From: Sulfurimonas paralvinellae
GTDB lineage: Bacteria; Campylobacterota; Campylobacteria; Campylobacterales; Sulfurimonadaceae
Assembly: GCF_014905135.1 (NCBI RefSeq)
Contig: NZ_CP041406.1
Coordinates: 1,240,001 to 1,304,000 of the forward strand
Length of the DNA stretch: 64,000 bases
Direction: 5' to 3'
The stretch's first letter is position 1, and each line of letters opens with the position of its first letter. Made by a program: the position numbers and the translations under genes. The notes beneath the pieces were generated by a model. The model was given only the letters and a program-made list of their open reading frames with translations, ran no database searches and had not been told where the DNA came from. Shown piece by piece: positions 10,199-54,610 of the stretch.

Positions 10199-11302
10199 AT
10201 GAGTGAAGAAGTCGCAGCACCATCTGAAAATGCAGGTAAGAAAGTAGACATTAAAAAACTACTCAAAAGTGTTTTGGCATTCAAATCTTCGGACTTACAC
10301 CTTGTTGTCGGAAGTGAACCGCAGATCAGAATAGATAAAGAACTACGTCCTCTCAATCTTCCCGTTTTAAGTGCAAATGATGTCGAAGAGATGGCATACT
10401 CTCTCATCGAAGACAAGCAGAAGAAAGAGTTCGAAGAGCACAATGAACTCGACTTCTCATTCGAGCTGAAAAACATCGGGCGTTTTCGTGCCAACTACTA
10501 CCGCACCATTCATGGTATCGGTTGCGCCTTTCGTATGATTCCTATTGAGATTCCTACGCTTGATGAGTATGGAAATCCTCCGATCTTTAAAGAACTCGTT
10601 AAAAGAGAAAAAGGTCTCATTCTCGTTACCGGTCCTACCGGCTCAGGTAAATCAACAACGCTTGCTTCAATGCTCCATGAGATAAACATGACAGAACGCC
10701 GTCACATCATCACTATTGAAGATCCGGTCGAGTTCGTTCACAAAAACAACAAATCACTCTTCTCACAGCGTGATGTCGGAAGTAATACAGAATCTTTTGC
10801 TGCCGCACTGAAATACTCACTCCGTCAGGATCCTGACATTATCCTCATCGGGGAGATGCGTGATGCCGAAACTATCGGTGCAGCCTTAACAGCCGCAGAA
10901 ACAGGTCACCTTGTATTTGGAACACTCCATACAAACTCTGCTCCGGGTACCATTAACCGTATCATCGATGTTTTCGCCGGTGAAGAACAGGCTCAGATAC
11001 GTGCGCAACTTGCATCTTCTTTGGTTGCTGTTATTTCTCAAACACTTATTCCCCGCATAGGAAGCGGAAAAGTTGCAACACAGGAGATTCTCATCACAAA
11101 TCCTGCGATTCAGAATCAGATTCGTGAAGATAAAGTACACCAGATATACTCACAAATGCAGCTTAACCAACAAGAGACATTTATGACGACACAAACGCAA
11201 CAGCTCATAGAACTGCTTCAAAAAAATGTCATCTCCAAAGAGAATGCCATCAAAAACTCAAACCGTCCGGAAGAGCTGCTTAAAATGATAGAAGGGCTTT
11301 AG
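10199..11302 (+). CDS. pilT: Type IV pilus retraction ATPase PilT
   Basis: 367 residues. Secretion-ATPase domain with Walker A (TGPTGSGKST), Asp box, Walker B (DPDIILIGEMRD) and His box (GHLVFGTLHTN), and an N-terminal PAS-like pilus ATPase domain from about residue 18. It lacks the tetracysteine zinc site of PilB assembly ATPases, which marks it as the retraction type. PilT depolymerises pilin fibres for twitching and DNA uptake. A good AGGAG ribosome site sits 8 bases before ATG. No other pilus genes are in the window. Its presence is relevant to the repeated TGCGTGAG octamer as a possible uptake signal. Confidence 0.95.
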   Translation: MSEEVAAPSENAGKKVDIKKLLKSVLAFKSSDLHLVVGSEPQIRIDKELRPLNLPVLSANDVEEMAYSLIEDKQKKEFEEHNELDFSFELKNIGRFRANYYRTIHGIGCAFRMIPIEIPTLDEYGNPPIFKELVKREKGLILVTGPTGSGKSTTLASMLHEINMTERRHIITIEDPVEFVHKNNKSLFSQRDVGSNTESFAAALKYSLRQDPDIILIGEMRDAETIGAALTAAETGHLVFGTLHTNSAPGTINRIIDVFAGEEQAQIRAQLASSLVAVISQTLIPRIGSGKVATQEILITNPAIQNQIREDKVHQIYSQMQLNQQETFMTTQTQQLIELLQKNVISKENAIKNSNRPEELLKMIEGL

Positions 11303-12309
11303 TCCTTTCTAAAACGTATCATTTTAAAACGCTCACCAAGGAAATTTGGCATAATGAGCATCTTCGCTTTTTCAAGTTCCTGCTTATAGATTCTTTCATC
11401 TGCATTTTTCTGCAGTATCTCAAGAAGCTCCAAAAGTCCCATATTAACTAATGCTGTCATCTGTGCTTTGAACTCGACAAACTTCACTCCTGCTTCTTCA
11501 TAGGCATCTTTAACATGCTCAAAAGTAACATCATAGGTAATATCTGATTTTTTAAACAACTCCTCACGCGCAATATAATCCTCATTATCTTTAGGAAGAA
11601 AAAACGGCAGTACCTTATGCTTTGTATAGACTCTGAGTGAAAAGTCAGGTCTCGCCTGCATCTCTCCATAATCAAAGCTCATGAACTCAAATTTCTCAGC
11701 AGCTCCTGCCATCTCTTTGGCAAAGGCTTCATAGCCAAGTGCTATCTCACCTCTATCCTTATGATACTTTTTCGCTTTTTGTTCCACCCAGAGATCATCT
11801 ATGTCAAACTCTACATTGTGATTTGTAACACTGGCTGTTTTGCCTTTATAATAAAGCTCACAGGGAAAGGCATCAAAGATTTCATTGGCTATGAAAAAAG
11901 CATTCTCTACATGCATCTCACGCAGTGATTTATAGTACGTGAGCGTAACCACATCACCAAAACTCTCAGCAAAATAGTCACGCTGATGTTTTTGCAGATC
12001 GTCAAAACGCTCAATAATGACAAAGTTAAAACTAGAGAGCAGTTCAGGTCGCAGCGTATAGAGAAATTCACATACATCTGCCAAAAAATAGCCATGATGC
12101 GCTCCTATCTCACAGATAGTTGCGTGAGGCTCTAAAAAACCTTCATCGACCAGTGAGATGATATGCTTGGCAATAGTCCCGCCAAAGAACTTACTTGTGG
12201 AAACTGCTGTATAGAAATCACCCTCTTTTCCTATATTTTTATAAGTGGCGTAGTATCCGTCTTCACCATAGAGCCACTCTGTCATATATTCACTAAATCT
12301 TTGTTTCAT
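11299..12309 (-). CDS. SAM-dependent methyltransferase, MidA/NDUFAF7 family
   Basis: 336 residues. N-terminal GKEGDFYTAVSTSKFFG motif, then a Rossmann methyltransferase core with EIGAHHGY (the glycine-rich loop, with His-His in place of the more usual Gly pattern), FFIANEIFDAFP and FDYGE. These are hallmarks of the MidA/NDUFAF7 group, whose eukaryotic member methylates an arginine of the complex I NDUFS2 subunit. A role on NADH dehydrogenase or another protein target is inferred. Its end overlaps the convergent pilT by four bases, and the TolC-like gene lies eight bases upstream. Confidence 0.85.
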   Translation of the reverse strand: MKQRFSEYMTEWLYGEDGYYATYKNIGKEGDFYTAVSTSKFFGGTIAKHIISLVDEGFLEPHATICEIGAHHGYFLADVCEFLYTLRPELLSSFNFVIIERFDDLQKHQRDYFAESFGDVVTLTYYKSLREMHVENAFFIANEIFDAFPCELYYKGKTASVTNHNVEFDIDDLWVEQKAKKYHKDRGEIALGYEAFAKEMAGAAEKFEFMSFDYGEMQARPDFSLRVYTKHKVLPFFLPKDNEDYIAREELFKKSDITYDVTFEHVKDAYEEAGVKFVEFKAQMTALVNMGLLELLEILQKNADERIYKQELEKAKMLIMPNFLGERFKMIRFRKD

Positions 12310-17361: not shown

Positions 17362-18306
17362 ATGTCTGTACTTGATAATGTTGATGCTGCTACAAACCTA
17401 GCAAAAAATAATGAGTTGCAACTTTTAGTTTTTCGTGTCAGCGAAAAAAAGGACTCTGCATACTATGCTATCAATGTATTCAAAACACGAGAGGTTGTTG
17501 AAGCAAAAAATCATTATCTGACACAGATACCTTCACCCCATCCGCTGCTTGAAGGAACCATCATTCTTCGAGGCCTGCAGATTCCTATATTGAATCTTCC
17601 GGCATGGCTCGGCGTAACACTCACAAAAGAGGAAATCGAACGCTCAAATATTCTCGTTTGTGATTTTAACGGTGTCATCATCGGTCTTCGCATCATGTCA
17701 GCATATAGAGTTATCAAAAAGAACTGGAATGAGATGCATGCGCCTGATAGCTACAGACTCAAAGAAGACGGTGTCGTGATGAATGATACACGTCTTGAAG
17801 ACGGTTCACTTTGTCTGATTCTGGACTATGAAAAACTCCTGGCAGATGTTCTGCCACAGGCTCTTGTCGACATAGACAGAGACACGGAACTATTAAAAGA
17901 GATCGAAATTCCAGATAAACTCAAATACGGAACAGTTCTTGTTGCAGAAGATTCAAAAACAGCACAGAGACACCTTGTCCAGCTCTTTGCCAAAGCAAAT
18001 ATTGATATGAAACTTTTTGATAACGGAAAAAAACTCATTGATTATATCAATGAACTTGATGAAACACAAATTGACAAAATTCCTGCAATTATTACAGATA
18101 TCGAGATGCCGGAAATGTCAGGATTCACCGTAGTGAAACTCCTCAAATCAAACAACAAGACAAGAAATATACCAATAATCGTCAACTCTTCCATGACAGG
18201 TGATAATAATAAACGTGAAGCACAAACACTTGGTGCAGACGGCTTCATCGACAAAACAAAAAGTCATAATGTCATCCCGCTCATTGCATCAGTAATGCAA
18301 AAATAA
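17362..18306 (+). CDS. cheV: Chemotaxis coupling protein CheV
   Basis: 314 residues. CheW-like domain (about 17-165) followed by a response-regulator receiver domain (about 188-312). In the receiver E196/D197 form the acidic pocket, D246 (ITDIEMPEMSGF) is the phosphoacceptor, and a Thr/Ser (NSSMTG) and Lys (IDKTKS) complete the active site. CheV couples chemoreceptors to CheA and is modulated by phosphorylation; epsilon-proteobacteria often have more than one copy. An AAAAGG ribosome site precedes the ATG. It is monocistronic, divergent from the HlyD-like gene and convergent with oadB. Confidence 0.95.
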   Translation: MSVLDNVDAATNLAKNNELQLLVFRVSEKKDSAYYAINVFKTREVVEAKNHYLTQIPSPHPLLEGTIILRGLQIPILNLPAWLGVTLTKEEIERSNILVCDFNGVIIGLRIMSAYRVIKKNWNEMHAPDSYRLKEDGVVMNDTRLEDGSLCLILDYEKLLADVLPQALVDIDRDTELLKEIEIPDKLKYGTVLVAEDSKTAQRHLVQLFAKANIDMKLFDNGKKLIDYINELDETQIDKIPAIITDIEMPEMSGFTVVKLLKSNNKTRNIPIIVNSSMTGDNNKREAQTLGADGFIDKTKSHNVIPLIASVMQK

Positions 18307-18351
18307 ATAAAGAAAAGACAATCTAAAATATTTAATAAACAAAAAATTTAA

Positions 18352-18462
18352 AGAGTGACGTAAGTGCTAGGCATCGATGAGGAAGTGTATTAAAAGTACA
18401 CGCCCTGAAAGAAGTACCCTTGGGGTATGACGAAGAGATAACGACGCAATTGCGTCGCTATT
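18352..18462. other. Structured intergenic element between cheV and oadB
   Basis: The 173-base gap between the convergent cheV and oadB ends contains three stem-loops in succession: GTGTA/TACAC, TACCC/GGGTA with a three-base loop, and the perfect 16-base palindrome CGACGCAATTGCGTCG at 18442-18457. It is more GC-rich than normal spacers here and has no plausible gene. It may be an interspersed repeat, a small RNA, or a bidirectional terminator region. What it does is not known from sequence. Confidence 0.45.
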
Positions 18463-18466
18463 TGAA
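18442..18466. terminator. Candidate bidirectional terminator (palindrome CGACGCAATTGCGTCG)
   Basis: A 6-bp GC-rich stem (CGACGC/GCGTCG) with an AATT loop in the gap between convergent genes. The following T run on the + strand is weak (TATTTGAATTTT), so termination is plausible but not certain. Confidence 0.4.
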
Positions 18467-18479
18467 TTTTAAAATGTCC

Positions 18480-19814
18480 TTACTGGAACATTGAGATTAG
18501 TACACCAGCCGCAACTGCTGACCCAATAACACCTGCCACATTAGGACCCATTGCATGCATCAAGAGCATATTCGTACGGTCATATTCCATACCGACTTTA
18601 TTTGATACACGTGCAGCCATCGGTACTGCTGAAACTCCAGCCGAACCAATAAGAGGATTTACTTTATGACCAGGGAAAAGGTTCATAAGTTTTGCCATTA
18701 AAACACCTGCTGCCGTACCGACACCAAATGCAATGATACCAAGAGCCATAATGAACATTGTCTCAGGAACAAGGAACTGATCCGCTGCAAGTTTTGAACC
18801 AACACCAAGACCTAAAAAGATAGTCGTAATGTTAATAAGTGCATTTTGCAGTGTATCGTTAAGACGTTCAACAACACCTGACTCTTTTAAGAAGTTACCG
18901 AACATAAACGCACCAATAAGCGGAGTAGATTCCGGTAAAACTAAAATAGCAAGTACCAATACCAAAATAGGGAAAATCAATTTCTCCAAACGAGAAACAT
19001 GACGTAACGTACTCATTTTGATCTTTCTCTCTGCTTCAGTAGTCAATGCTTTCATAATCGGAGGCTGAATAATAGGAACCATCGCCATATAAGAGTATGA
19101 TGCAACTGCAATAGCACCTAAAAGTTCAGGAGCAAGTTTTGTCGCAATAAAGATAGATGTCGGACCATCCGCGCCACCGATAATAGAGATAGCCGATGCT
19201 TGTTTCAGTGTAAAGTCAACAAATCCCATCTGTGCAAGAACCATTGCACCGACAAGTGTTCCAAAAATACCGAACTGAGCAGCTCCTCCAAGAAGAGCTG
19301 TCTTAGGATTTGACAAGAGCGGACCGAAGTCTGTCATCGCACCAACACCCATAAAAATGATAATAGGGAAAAGCTCATTTGAGAGACCCGCCTGGTAAAT
19401 TACACCCAAAAATCCATGATGCCCCGCTATTCCTGCAATAGGAATATTTGCTAAAAGCCCGCCAAATGCAATCGACAGAAGCAATAAAGGCTCAAAACCT
19501 TTCGCAATAGCAAGCCAGAAGAGTAAGAATGTAACAAGGATCATAATAACACGGCCAAGCCCCTTGTGAAAATCACTCATTGGCTCTCCGGCAGCACTCA
19601 TTTCATCGTCACGAGGATGAACGAGTGCGACAACACCTGTTGATTCTAAAAAGCTCATAATCATATCGCCCATCGGCTGCGCTTGATATGTCTCTTCCTG
19701 ATGCACCGAAACTTCTTTCGAAGCTGCTGCATGCTCGGACGCTGCTGCATTTGCAGAAAATGCAAAAGCAAACAACATCATTGATGCAAAGAATTTAATT
19801 AAAACATTTTTCAT
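18480..19814 (-). CDS. oadB: Na+-translocating decarboxylase beta subunit
   Basis: 444 residues with about 10-11 membrane helices. It carries the family signature ..[29 protein letters not shown] (Na+-site Asp and Asn/Ser region) and later [19 protein letters not shown]. OadB couples carboxybiotin decarboxylation to Na+ export. Oddly, the first ~70 residues hold a signal-peptide-like segment and a polar Ala/Ser/His stretch ahead of the normal start, making it longer than many OadB proteins. It is last in the oadG-oadA-oadB operon; an AGGATAATAA ribosome site overlaps the oadA stop. Confidence 0.95.
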
Positions 19815-50854: not shown

Positions 50855-51160
50855 TTGTCCACTTCCTTTGAAAAAATCATGAAGGCCAAATCACTCCTTG
50901 GTCTTCGTGAAAAGTCCTCCATTAAAGAAATCAAAAATCGTTATAAAGACCTTATGAAAAAATGGCATCCCGACAAACATCCGAATGATGTCGACAAAGC
51001 AACTAAAATGAGTATGAAGATAAATGATGCCTATAAGACTATTTTAGAATACTGCAATAACTATGAATACCCATTTGACGAAGAGAGTATACGAGAGAAG
51101 TACCAATCCCCTTCTGAGTGGATGCAAAACAAATTCGGCAATAAAAAAGATACTATTTAA
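50855..51160 (+). CDS. Short J-domain protein
   Basis: 101 residues that are mostly one J domain, with HPD in KKWHPDKHPN (about 41-50) and helices II and III in place, then a short C-terminal tail. TTG at 50855 is given as start; an ATG 24 bases later (MKAKSLLGL) is an alternative and neither has a strong ribosome site. It starts two bases after the ftsZ stop, so it is read from that transcript. It may direct DnaK to division or envelope clients; that is conjecture. Confidence 0.8.
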   Translation: MSTSFEKIMKAKSLLGLREKSSIKEIKNRYKDLMKKWHPDKHPNDVDKATKMSMKINDAYKTILEYCNNYEYPFDEESIREKYQSPSEWMQNKFGNKKDTI

Positions 51161-52115
51161 GCCAAACACCATTTTTGAGATAGTAGCTGAGTGGATAGTA
51201 TGTCACAATGAGCATATAGAGCGTATTGTAAAAAAGAGAAAGACGAAAACGTTTTAACTGCTCCTCTTTTTTAAACTCTATCAACCCAAGAGCTATACCA
51301 AAAAATGTTCCTACAAATAAGATGATATAAAGAAAATAGCCGATGTAGTTATAATCTCGCTGCAGAAGACAAAACGGACAGTGATGTGTCGGTAATTCAT
51401 AGATATAAGTGCCAAAGAAAGCAATCAGTGTGATGATTGCCATAATGAGATAAAAAACATTGGTTATGGCATAAAAATATCTGTTTTTTAGCAGGTAAAA
51501 TAGAACAAGCAGCACAAAAGTTCCATAAAAAAAAGAGAGCAGTAGTGAATGAGAAGCACCTAGAACCTCTGCCATATAAGTTGCTGATGTCGTTGAAAAA
51601 ATAGCTCCGCAACAATCAACAACACTATTTACATCCAAAGCACCATACATCATGCTCTCTATAACGATCTCTGCTAAAAGTAAAAAATAAGCTACACAAA
51701 AGAGCCAAAATTTCTTTTTAAGATAGGGTTGATTTTCATACTTCATATCTTCATCATTGAGCACTATCCAAAAAGCGAAAACATACAAATTGAGTATCTT
51801 TAACAAAAGCAGCGGCGTACCGTAAGTTGTCGCACTGACAACACCGGCTGCACACATAGCTCCTGGAAGCAAGGTAGCTATATTATTGAGAGTATAAACA
51901 AAAAAGATAAAAAGAGGTACTTTGACATAGAAAATAAATTTGATGATGGTTGCCGAGAGATAGCTTTTCTTTTCAAGCTCATACTGATAAGATGTCGTTG
52001 CATTAGTATCATAACTGCGTACTATTTTCACGGCGTTTACAAATGCTATGGTTGCAAAAATCACAAACAAAGCATTTATAATGTATAGCGTGATGATTTC
52101 CGGTGTTAAGAGCAT
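51153..52115 (-). CDS. Polytopic membrane protein with CPFC motif (DsbB/VKOR-like pattern)
   Basis: 320 residues with about eight membrane helices. A C246-P-F-C249 motif followed by LLQR lies just after a helix, as in DsbB-type or VKOR-type quinone-linked thiol oxidases, and further cysteines C88, C140 and the C168-C169 pair lie elsewhere. I do not recognise the exact family. It is last of four coupled genes (permease, ATPase and NosL-like upstream), and its start overlaps the ATPase stop by one base. A redox or metal role in the cluster is inferred. Its 3' end overlaps the J-domain gene. Confidence 0.7.
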   Translation of the reverse strand: MLLTPEIITLYIINALFVIFATIAFVNAVKIVRSYDTNATTSYQYELEKKSYLSATIIKFIFYVKVPLFIFFVYTLNNIATLLPGAMCAAGVVSATTYGTPLLLLKILNLYVFAFWIVLNDEDMKYENQPYLKKKFWLFCVAYFLLLAEIVIESMMYGALDVNSVVDCCGAIFSTTSATYMAEVLGASHSLLLSFFYGTFVLLVLFYLLKNRYFYAITNVFYLIMAIITLIAFFGTYIYELPTHHCPFCLLQRDYNYIGYFLYIILFVGTFFGIALGLIEFKKEEQLKRFRLSLFYNTLYMLIVTYYPLSYYLKNGVWLK

Positions 52116-52771
52116 TACAGGAGATTTCCGTGTTCAATGTTTACGATTGTATCTACAAAATCAAGATCGAAAAAAAGTGGATCATGTGTTGCCACAACAA
52201 TGGTTCTCTTTTTTGATTTAAGATCACGCAGCATCTCTATAAACTCCAAAGAGAGCTTCTCATCGAGGTTTGCCGTTGGTTCATCGGCTAAAATAATTTT
52301 AGGATCATTTATATTTGCTCTGGCAATGGCAACACGCTGCTGCTCCCCGCCTGAAAGATTTTTAACCATCATGTCAATTTTTTGTTCAATATGAAATTTA
52401 CCAAGCACGGCAGCTGCTTTTTGATCCATAAGCTCACGCGGAAGATTTAAAGGGAAGAGTGGAAGCAGAACATTCTCTTTAACTGAGAGTGTCGGGATGA
52501 GATTGTACTTTTGAAAAACTATACCGATGTTATCACGTCGATAAGTTGCCGCAAAATGATCAGGCAGTTTCGATATCTTTTTACTGTCAACAAACACCTC
52601 TCCTTCAGTCGGCTTTGACAAACCTGCGATCAAAGAGAGGATAGTACTCTTTCCACTGCCGCTCATACCTTTTAAAATGACTAACTCACCCTCTTTAAAA
52701 GTCAGATTGATATTGTTAAGTGCATGAACATTGCCATCATATATCTTTGTAATATTTTTCAGTCGGATCAT
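52115..52771 (-). CDS. ABC transporter ATP-binding protein (LolD/MacB type)
   Basis: 218 residues. Walker A GMSGSGKST (about 35-43), LSGGEQQRVAIARA signature, Walker B ILADEPTANLD and a His switch VATHDP. The FTSX-linked ATPase class, to which LolD, MacB and the P19-linked C. jejuni ATPase belong. Its start overlaps the permease stop by four bases and its stop overlaps the CPFC membrane protein, so the complex is translated together. Confidence 0.92.
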   Translation of the reverse strand: MIRLKNITKIYDGNVHALNNINLTFKEGELVILKGMSGSGKSTILSLIAGLSKPTEGEVFVDSKKISKLPDHFAATYRRDNIGIVFQKYNLIPTLSVKENVLLPLFPLNLPRELMDQKAAAVLGKFHIEQKIDMMVKNLSGGEQQRVAIARANINDPKIILADEPTANLDEKLSLEFIEMLRDLKSKKRTIVVATHDPLFFDLDFVDTIVNIEHGNLL

Positions 52772-53943
52772 CGCATCACCTCATCAGCGTCTAAAGTCGC
52801 TACTCTCCAAGACGGTATCAAGGTTGCGGCAATATATACCGGTACAGAGAGTAAAAAGATCAGCAAGATATATGACATATCAATATGCACATTCAGCGTA
52901 AAGGAGTTGATATCCAAAAGATTTTCATGGGTAAATATTGATCCAAGCAATGGTGCTTTTAACAAAAAGACATATATATAAGCCAACGCAACACCTAAAA
53001 TAAAAGAGAAAAGAGAAAGTAGTGATGCTTCATAGAATTTTGCATGCAATACATCTTCCACTCGCCAGCCTAAAGCTTTTAGAATCCCTATCTCCCGTTT
53101 CTCTTCTGAACTCAAACCATTGGCTTTATCATACACGATAACAAAGAATGTAAAAAGAGCTATAATAAAGAGTGAAAGGAAAACACCATTGTCATAATCA
53201 AAGAGTTTCTCATACTTTACGCTTAAATCATTTTTGGATACTACCTTTGCATTTGGCAACAGCAGACGAATCTTTGAAGCGATGAAATCGAGTTCATTTT
53301 TATTAGCAACGCTCAAAGCAATATCTGTTACCTGATTTTTATGATAACCAAAAATCTTCTGAGCTGTCTCTTTTTGCATGAGTATCAAATTTTGCAGTTC
53401 TACACGCTTAGAGACATCAAAACTATCTGCAAGAGACACTTTTAAGAGTTCTCCATCAGGCTTCACAAAGTTAAAATATTCCTTATAATAGGCCTGTTTC
53501 ATTGCCTTTTTTACATTTATGCTCACCAACATAGAAGATTCATTGATGTCATGTTTTTCAAGTAGTTTTTGGATGAAAGGATCACTCTGTGTTTCAAAAG
53601 GATCCACACCCACTATATAAAAGTTTTTATCTTTGGCTCTAAAGTAGTACGTTCCCTCAACTCTTGTTCTTCCGGAACTTATTCCATCAATTTCCAAAAG
53701 TTTGTCAAGCAGACCGGCATCAATGGCAGCAGGTTTTCCGGCCTGATAGTTTTGTACAAGAATATCGGGCTGATTTTTTATACGCTCACGCAGTTCATAC
53801 TCTATGGAACTTGTCGTAAAAAAAAGGCTTGAGAGCAGTGCTACTAAAAGTGTAAATACCGTAACTATAAAGAAATTTTTACTCTTATAGCGTAAAATAT
53901 ATGCATAGGCATACTCTAATAGATAAAAGTTTATCTTACTCAT
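52768..53943 (-). CDS. FtsX-type ABC permease
   Basis: 391 residues: one N-terminal helix (about 24-45), a large extracytoplasmic domain (about 46-255), then three C-terminal helices, the standard MacB/LolC layout. The segment EEKREIGILKALGWRVEDVL after the first C-terminal helix is the FtsX signature. It likely couples ATP hydrolysis to movement of a periplasmic or lipid-linked substrate rather than transport through the membrane. Overlaps the NosL-like gene by eight bases. Confidence 0.9.
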   Translation of the reverse strand: MSKINFYLLEYAYAYILRYKSKNFFIVTVFTLLVALLSSLFFTTSSIEYELRERIKNQPDILVQNYQAGKPAAIDAGLLDKLLEIDGISSGRTRVEGTYYFRAKDKNFYIVGVDPFETQSDPFIQKLLEKHDINESSMLVSINVKKAMKQAYYKEYFNFVKPDGELLKVSLADSFDVSKRVELQNLILMQKETAQKIFGYHKNQVTDIALSVANKNELDFIASKIRLLLPNAKVVSKNDLSVKYEKLFDYDNGVFLSLFIIALFTFFVIVYDKANGLSSEEKREIGILKALGWRVEDVLHAKFYEASLLSLFSFILGVALAYIYVFLLKAPLLGSIFTHENLLDINSFTLNVHIDMSYILLIFLLSVPVYIAATLIPSWRVATLDADEVMR

Positions 53944-54610
53944 CGAGTTTATATACCATATCTGCTGTTATATCATCAAATTTGACAATTTTTTTACCGC
54001 GATGATCAAGCAGAAAATTCTCTGCTCTTTTTTTATCTTTAAAAGCAATAAGTTCATTGCCCATAGGGCCATACACATCACTACCAAGGACAAAATAAGC
54101 ATCTTTAACATTCACGGTCTCTTGTGTATAGTAAGATTGCGTGAGCATCTCTTTAATATTTTTATTGTGTTCAAAATAATACTTCATCAAATCTTTCATA
54201 CCGTCAAAATAGAGTTTCTTGCCATCTTTATACGCTATCATACTTACCCATTTTGGATATTTGTATAAAAACATCCCACATACTGGACACTTCTCATCAT
54301 GAGATACATGAATTACAGGATATTTTTTTGTAACTTTTTTTTCTCTTTTAACATCCCAGAGATAAAGAGCAAGCGCTTCTTGATAAGCCGGTTTTAGTTG
54401 AGAGCACTCCTGCTTTTTCTCTATACTGTGAAATAGCTCATTATAGGTGCTGTATTGCGTGAGATTAACAGTAGAGCATTTTTTTTCAAAAATCTTTTTA
54501 CCCATCGGATATATTTTCTTCTCTTTTATAGCAGAAGAGTAGTTTGGATAGGCAAAAAGATTTGTTAGAAGAAAAAAAGCAAATAGGAAAAATAGTTTAA
54601 AAAAAGACAT
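53936..54610 (-). CDS. NosL-like protein with degenerate cytochrome c-type N-domain
   Basis: 224 residues. Signal peptide (about 1-20), then a segment (about 33-95) resembling a cytochrome c domain: GKKIFEKKCS at the heme-attachment site and CSQLKP..EALALYLWDV at the end, but without the CxxCH second Cys and His, so heme cannot bind. The remainder is a NosL domain with CPVCGM and FDGMKDLMKYYF. First gene of the four-gene cluster, and it has a direct repeat with an 11-base period upstream. It may sense or bind copper and feed the ABC complex. Confidence 0.75.
   Translation of the reverse strand: MSFFKLFFLFAFFLLTNLFAYPNYSSAIKEKKIYPMGKKIFEKKCSTVNLTQYSTYNELFHSIEKKQECSQLKPAYQEALALYLWDVKREKKVTKKYPVIHVSHDEKCPVCGMFLYKYPKWVSMIAYKDGKKLYFDGMKDLMKYYFEHNKNIKEMLTQSYYTQETVNVKDAYFVLGSDVYGPMGNELIAFKDKKRAENFLLDHRGKKIVKFDDITADMVYKLDE

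Follow-up and report, generated by a model that had tools for sequence, protein, structure and literature searches.

Nitrous oxide reductase (NosZ) and the haem-copper sulfite reductase (MccA) are unrelated periplasmic enzymes that both require copper. ABC pairs of the FtsX type, which fall into the type VII class, can use cytoplasmic ATP to drive shape changes in the periplasm. The closest described system to the locus reported here is NosDFYL of P. stutzeri (PDB 7osf-7osj, 7znq), in which a NosL-family copper chaperone is found together with an ABC ATPase/permease pair serving a periplasmic copper enzyme. As a chaperone, NosL serves the CuZ centre with Cu(I), and its CXM motif and another conserved Met are the conserved residues tied to Cu(I) binding (PMC6530538). 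In the nos cluster of Sulfurospirillum cavolei, a "five-gene insertion" including an ABC permease and an ATPase was reported without explanation (Ross et al., PMC4794192); that report concerned nos only, gave no function and made no link to mcc.

The window, i.e. the whole stretch of 64,000 nucleotides of Sulfurimonas paralvinellae that was analysed (NZ_CP041406.1, positions 1,240,001 to 1,304,000), carries a cluster which shares with NosDFYL the NosL-family protein and the ABC pair, and in many relatives it also shares the genomic setting. On the other hand, its permease is of the FtsX type (PF02687) and not NosY, no NosD belongs to the module, a membrane protein named M320 here (320 aa) and often a further membrane protein of ~100 aa are added, and the module occurs besides NosF, NosY and NosD. 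By analogy, the module may be regarded as a functional parallel to NosDFYL.

Results

The four overlapping ORFs that an earlier note on this DNA had described, for a NosL-like protein, an FtsX permease, an ATPase and M320, were verified on the minus strand (Table 1). The overlaps are 8, 4 and 1 bp, and three of the products have Pfam matches. Such overlap suggests co-expression only; the single complex of all four proteins that was also proposed there may exist. A short gene for a DnaJ-domain protein (window 50855-51160) was located downstream of ftsZ and convergent with M320, and the pairing was kept in many Sulfurimonas.

Table 1. Positions of the module genes and conserved motifs (window coordinates unless a locus is named)
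Feature	Position	Strand	Remarks
NosL-like gene	53936-54610	-	224 aa
CPVCGM with the CXM Cu(I)-ligand motif (residues 108-113)	54272..54289	-	sequence conservation
FtsX-type ABC permease gene	52768-53943	-	391 aa; PF02687 E=1e-12
ABC ATPase gene	52115-52771	-	218 aa; PF00005 E=2e-36
M320 gene (8-TM protein without known family)	51153-52115	-	320 aa; AF2 model
GAMC (residues 85-88), M320 periplasmic loop 2 (predicted)	51852..51863	-	M87, C88 invariant 158/158
Cys168-Cys169, M320 periplasmic loop 4 (predicted)	51609..51614	-	invariant 158/158
HHCPFC (residues 244-249), M320 periplasmic loop 6 (predicted)	51369..51386	-	H244, C246, P247, C249 invariant 158/158
Short NosL lipoprotein gene (nosL148)	L051:10426-10872, C1 ~1865425-1865871	+	TGC after hydrophobic stretch

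The NosL-like protein matched Pfam NosL (PF05573) with 107.4 bits against a cut-off of 24, and its profile matched the P. stutzeri NosL structures 7osf/7znq (E=1e-15). Residues C108, C111, G112, M113 and M183 were invariant in 17/17, the second conserved Met being M183 of a GPMG motif. The window protein keeps both the CXM motif and the second Met and is predicted to bind Cu(I). The protein was of the secreted type, with no lipobox Cys in its signal peptide and with an N-terminal extension of ~80 residues. A lipobox Cys, the mark of a membrane-anchored lipoprotein, is typical of classical NosL, and membership of the Pfam family does not need it. The extension (residues ~30-90 of the protein, MGKKIFEKKC...ALALYLWDVKR) resembled a c-type cytochrome domain without the haem motif; it contained two Cys that are frequent in relatives.

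For the ABC pair, the permease scored 48.3 bits against PF02687 (cut-off 25.5) and the ATPase 126 bits against ABC_tran, with Walker A, an LSGGQ-type signature (LSGGE), Walker B and the H-loop intact in the window protein and kept across 131 homologues. Like type VII (FtsX/MacB/LolCDE-type) systems, the pair combines an FtsX-like permease with a matching ATPase and appears suited to periplasmic work from cytoplasmic ATP. It differed from the described systems in its partners, NosL and M320, and in lying far under the curated LolCDE, MacB and FtsE cut-offs: the ATPase reached 181.9 bits with the LolD equivalog (cut-off 307.75) and the permease 42.7 bits with that of LolC/E (cut-off 362.45).

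Comparison of M320 with Pfam, NCBIfam and the PDB sequences yielded no family, and a search of plasmids found no M320. The AF2 model had eight TM helices (mean pLDDT 85). Met87, Cys88, Cys168, Cys169, His244, Cys246, Pro247 and Cys249 were invariant in 158/158 distinct sequences, which gives seven invariant potential soft-metal or thiol ligands (five Cys, one Met and one His); five of the six Cys named in the earlier note, which had set their conservation as a test, are thus conserved, the exception being Cys140, present in only 11/158. The loops with the invariant Cys contained 0, 0 and 1 K/R (none in loop 2) as compared with 2-5 in the other inter-helix loops, so that the positive-inside rule predicts a periplasmic position for each of the five Cys, a placement that follows from the predicted topology.

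The proposed likeness to DsbB was not borne out: 0/32 members matched Pfam DsbB (PF02600) at any reported level, and the Arg following CxxC in DsbB (Arg48) was not conserved in M320. One M320 (genome G092) matched the VKOR profile PF07884 (E=2.3e-4 in the search of its genome, hmmscan E=0.0018); its best score, 22 bits, was under the cut-off of 27.5, and the match ended at CPFC. Neither a VKOR nor a DsbB match was obtained for 32 other members. For the full AF2 model as well as for its C-terminal half, the matches listed by Foldseek/VIA were generic helical bundles only, with no DsbB or VKOR fold among them. M320 resembles these oxidoreductases in a CxxC placed where a TM helix begins on the periplasmic side, in further periplasmic Cys and in one weak VKOR match, whereas its eight TM helices, its GAMC and CC motifs and the absence of a family-level match set it apart.

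In relatives the genes followed a common order: first a NosL protein, in which two NosL domains were often present, then a single-TM protein of ~100 aa, FtsX, ATPase, M320 and a short NosL lipoprotein. The genes of the ~100-aa protein and the lipoprotein were both absent beside the window cluster, hence overlooked in the earlier note. The ~100-aa protein (L031:15401-15700 and relatives) had a conserved RHR motif, belonged to no Pfam family and was usually encoded between NosL and FtsX where present; its gene was missing in the window. Synteny outside this strain had been set as a test beforehand, and the cluster was indeed syntenic across genera. The block abutted nosZ-B-D-G-C1-C2-H-F-Y in L031, L032, L048, L065, L066, L070 and others, L147 and L168 had the module within the operon itself, and nosZ and M320 were <25 kb apart in 18/25 relatives with both on one contig. 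Linkage to nos was scattered on the M320 tree, where the label changed at least 9 times, gains being counted together with losses. A 471-aa ORF in L040 was rejected as an M320-NosL fusion, the M320 frame being another one.

In the window genome itself, nosZ was 584 kb from the M320 cluster; the statement that the cluster is not next to nosZ therefore holds for this strain and fails at the family level, where relatives adjoin nosZ. The short NosL lipoprotein gene, usually the last gene of the module, was found in the window-genome nos locus L051, ~570 kb from the other four module genes. L051 had the order short NosL lipoprotein, second nosD, PAS gene and other nos genes, which is the order of locus L138 minus the NosL-FtsX-ATPase-M320 block; the module therefore looks split between two places in this lineage. 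NosD, NosF and NosY were separate genes in L051, where two different nosD genes were present (10823-12061 and 17374-18594), the second between the NosL lipoprotein and PAS genes.

Linkage to mccA was the tightest of the module linkages. M320 was present in 48/48 genomes with a close (Wolinella-type) MccA, the spacing between mccA and M320 was 9.3-13.3 kb in 47/47 same-contig pairs, and the mcc-linked M320s formed a single clade (support 100/100). Downstream of mccA were genes for an FeS protein, NrfD, a ccsBA-type haem lyase and a Sel1 protein, followed by the block; the MccA that Wolinella encodes there was identified as PDB 4rkm/4rkn. Distant MccA-like octahaem proteins (G303, G165 and a further 36 genomes, for example at L182) shared 46-53% identity with Wolinella MccA along most of the protein. 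M320 was found in only 5/38 genomes with such proteins, and since they are mostly without the module, their copper supply, if any, must differ. Loss of the copper-ligand Cys as the explanation for the missing module was rejected, as 8/11 of the distant sequences keep both Cys, the remaining 3/11 having aligned poorly. In a third setting, the block adjoined ftsZ (in Sulfurimonas, the window included), DsbD_2 genes or, in Wolinella, a FixG/CcoG-type gene. The Wolinella copy in this setting is a second, very diverged M320-FtsX-ATPase set (L160:8959-9918), which also adjoins a SLAC1 family gene.

M320 was detected in 94/149 relatives and in 106/298 high-quality Campylobacterota genomes (26/58 genera), and the 80 loci retained out of 536 all had Campylobacterota or unclassified names. 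Among the 298 genomes, 67 had both M320 and NosZ, 39 M320 only, 21 NosZ only and 171 neither, which gives an odds ratio of 14 (Fisher p=6e-21). When a genome counted as positive for either NosZ or close MccA, the odds ratio was 24 (p=4e-29); both statistics ignore shared ancestry. Neither nosZ nor close mccA was present in 27/106 M320 genomes, and M320 was absent from 21/88 nosZ genomes, so that the module is neither exclusive to NosZ/MccA nor required for them; given these exceptions, there must be other clients or alternative delivery systems. On the same contig, 63/125 M320 copies were out of range of nosZ or mccA, partly owing to short contigs.

Discussion

We consider it probable that the cluster encodes a module that uses ATP to deliver copper to respiratory enzymes in the periplasm, mainly to NosZ of clade II and, in other family members, to MccA. 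Copper delivery is proposed because the Cu(I) motifs of NosL are kept, the NosL-like protein matches NosL structures and FtsX-type pairs can drive periplasmic changes. The link of the module to copper, raised already in the earlier note, is strong, with relatives of the module located at nosZ and mccA; the FixG/CcoG-type neighbour of the second Wolinella copy also speaks for copper delivery. The gene content, the invariant ligands with their placement in the periplasm as predicted from topology, the genomic linkage and the co-occurrence were established here; a joint complex of the four proteins, copper binding by M320, the way in which copper is passed and the part played by ATP are what we infer beyond them. 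The secreted NosL-like protein, together with the second NosL lipoprotein where present, would bind Cu(I) in the periplasm. M320 would offer a membrane-bound periplasmic site made up of the five invariant Cys together with Met87 and His244. With energy from the ABC pair, it may act as a relay, either of the Cu(I)-thiolate kind, taking Cu(I) and handing it on, or of the thiol-redox kind, keeping the thiols of chaperone and target reduced. The ATPase and the FtsX-type permease would turn cytoplasmic ATP into a periplasmic shape change by which copper is released or transferred, and copper need not cross the membrane in this step. Several points count against copper delivery: the genomes with M320 but neither client and those with nosZ but no M320, the copies out of range of both genes, and the scarcity of M320 in genomes with distant MccA-like proteins, although most of the distant sequences examined keep the copper-ligand Cys. 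Moreover, nos operons already carry NosFYD, yet the module adds a second ABC system.

The probabilities given to the alternatives are not exclusive of each other, as a thiol-redox role of M320 is compatible with a module serving copper enzymes. The main rival makes M320 a VKOR/DsbB-like oxidoreductase that would pass electrons between quinone and periplasmic thiols and keep the Cys of NosL or the apo-enzyme reduced, copper being involved indirectly. In M320, CPFC lies where a TM helix begins and the Cys-bearing periplasmic loop before it has a Cys pair, which mimics the layout of VKOR; the weak match of the G092 protein runs up to CPFC, and DsbB was not found in 19 searched genomes of the window's genus. 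That match, however, lies under the curated cut-off in a single member, the 32 others matched neither the VKOR nor the DsbB profile, and neither fold was among the listed structural matches. The thiol relay is a serious but somewhat doubtful reading. If the module served mainly the cbb3 cytochrome oxidase, or the periplasm with copper in general, and not NosZ/MccA, this would account for its presence in genomes without nosZ or close mccA, and the FixG/CcoG-type neighbour of the second Wolinella copy and the recurrent linkage to the DsbD_2 family (PF13386) fit with it. Such a main client is nevertheless unlikely: ccoN was present in 286/298 genomes as against 106 for M320 and was not found in the M320 genomes G141, G286, G293 and G319, so that the cbb3 oxidase does not explain the distribution of M320.

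In the 4rkm work, the copper of MccA is reportedly bound by Cys thiolates and not by inorganic sulfide. With mccA as the tightest linkage and the M320 Cys predicted to be periplasmic, it is very unlikely that the module exports or supplies sulfide for the CuZ site, even if the nos linkage and the invariant Cys would suit such a task; this idea was once put forward for NosDFY (PMC6530538). A dedicated accessory of cytochrome c maturation or of lipoprotein handling (LolCDE-like) would agree with the ccsBA-type haem lyase gene ahead of the mcc copies and with the weak resemblance of the permease to LolCE (42.7 bits, cut-off 362), but the scores are far under the LolC/D cut-offs and the conserved block of the nos-linked copies has no haem lyase gene, which makes such an accessory most improbable.

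It is quite possible, and we suggest it tentatively, that the module represents an undescribed class of copper-insertion machine, in which an FtsX-type ABC motor and a new eight-helix family with a five-Cys/Met/His Cu(I) site would load NosZ and MccA via NosL-type chaperones. Clade II N2O reductases are an important N2O sink. Their copper supply and that of MccA-type sulfite reductases are poorly known, and one conserved module is now tied to both, so that a cluster first described as "of unknown purpose" has a testable job. If this is true, M320 would represent a membrane copper/thiol protein of a new type.
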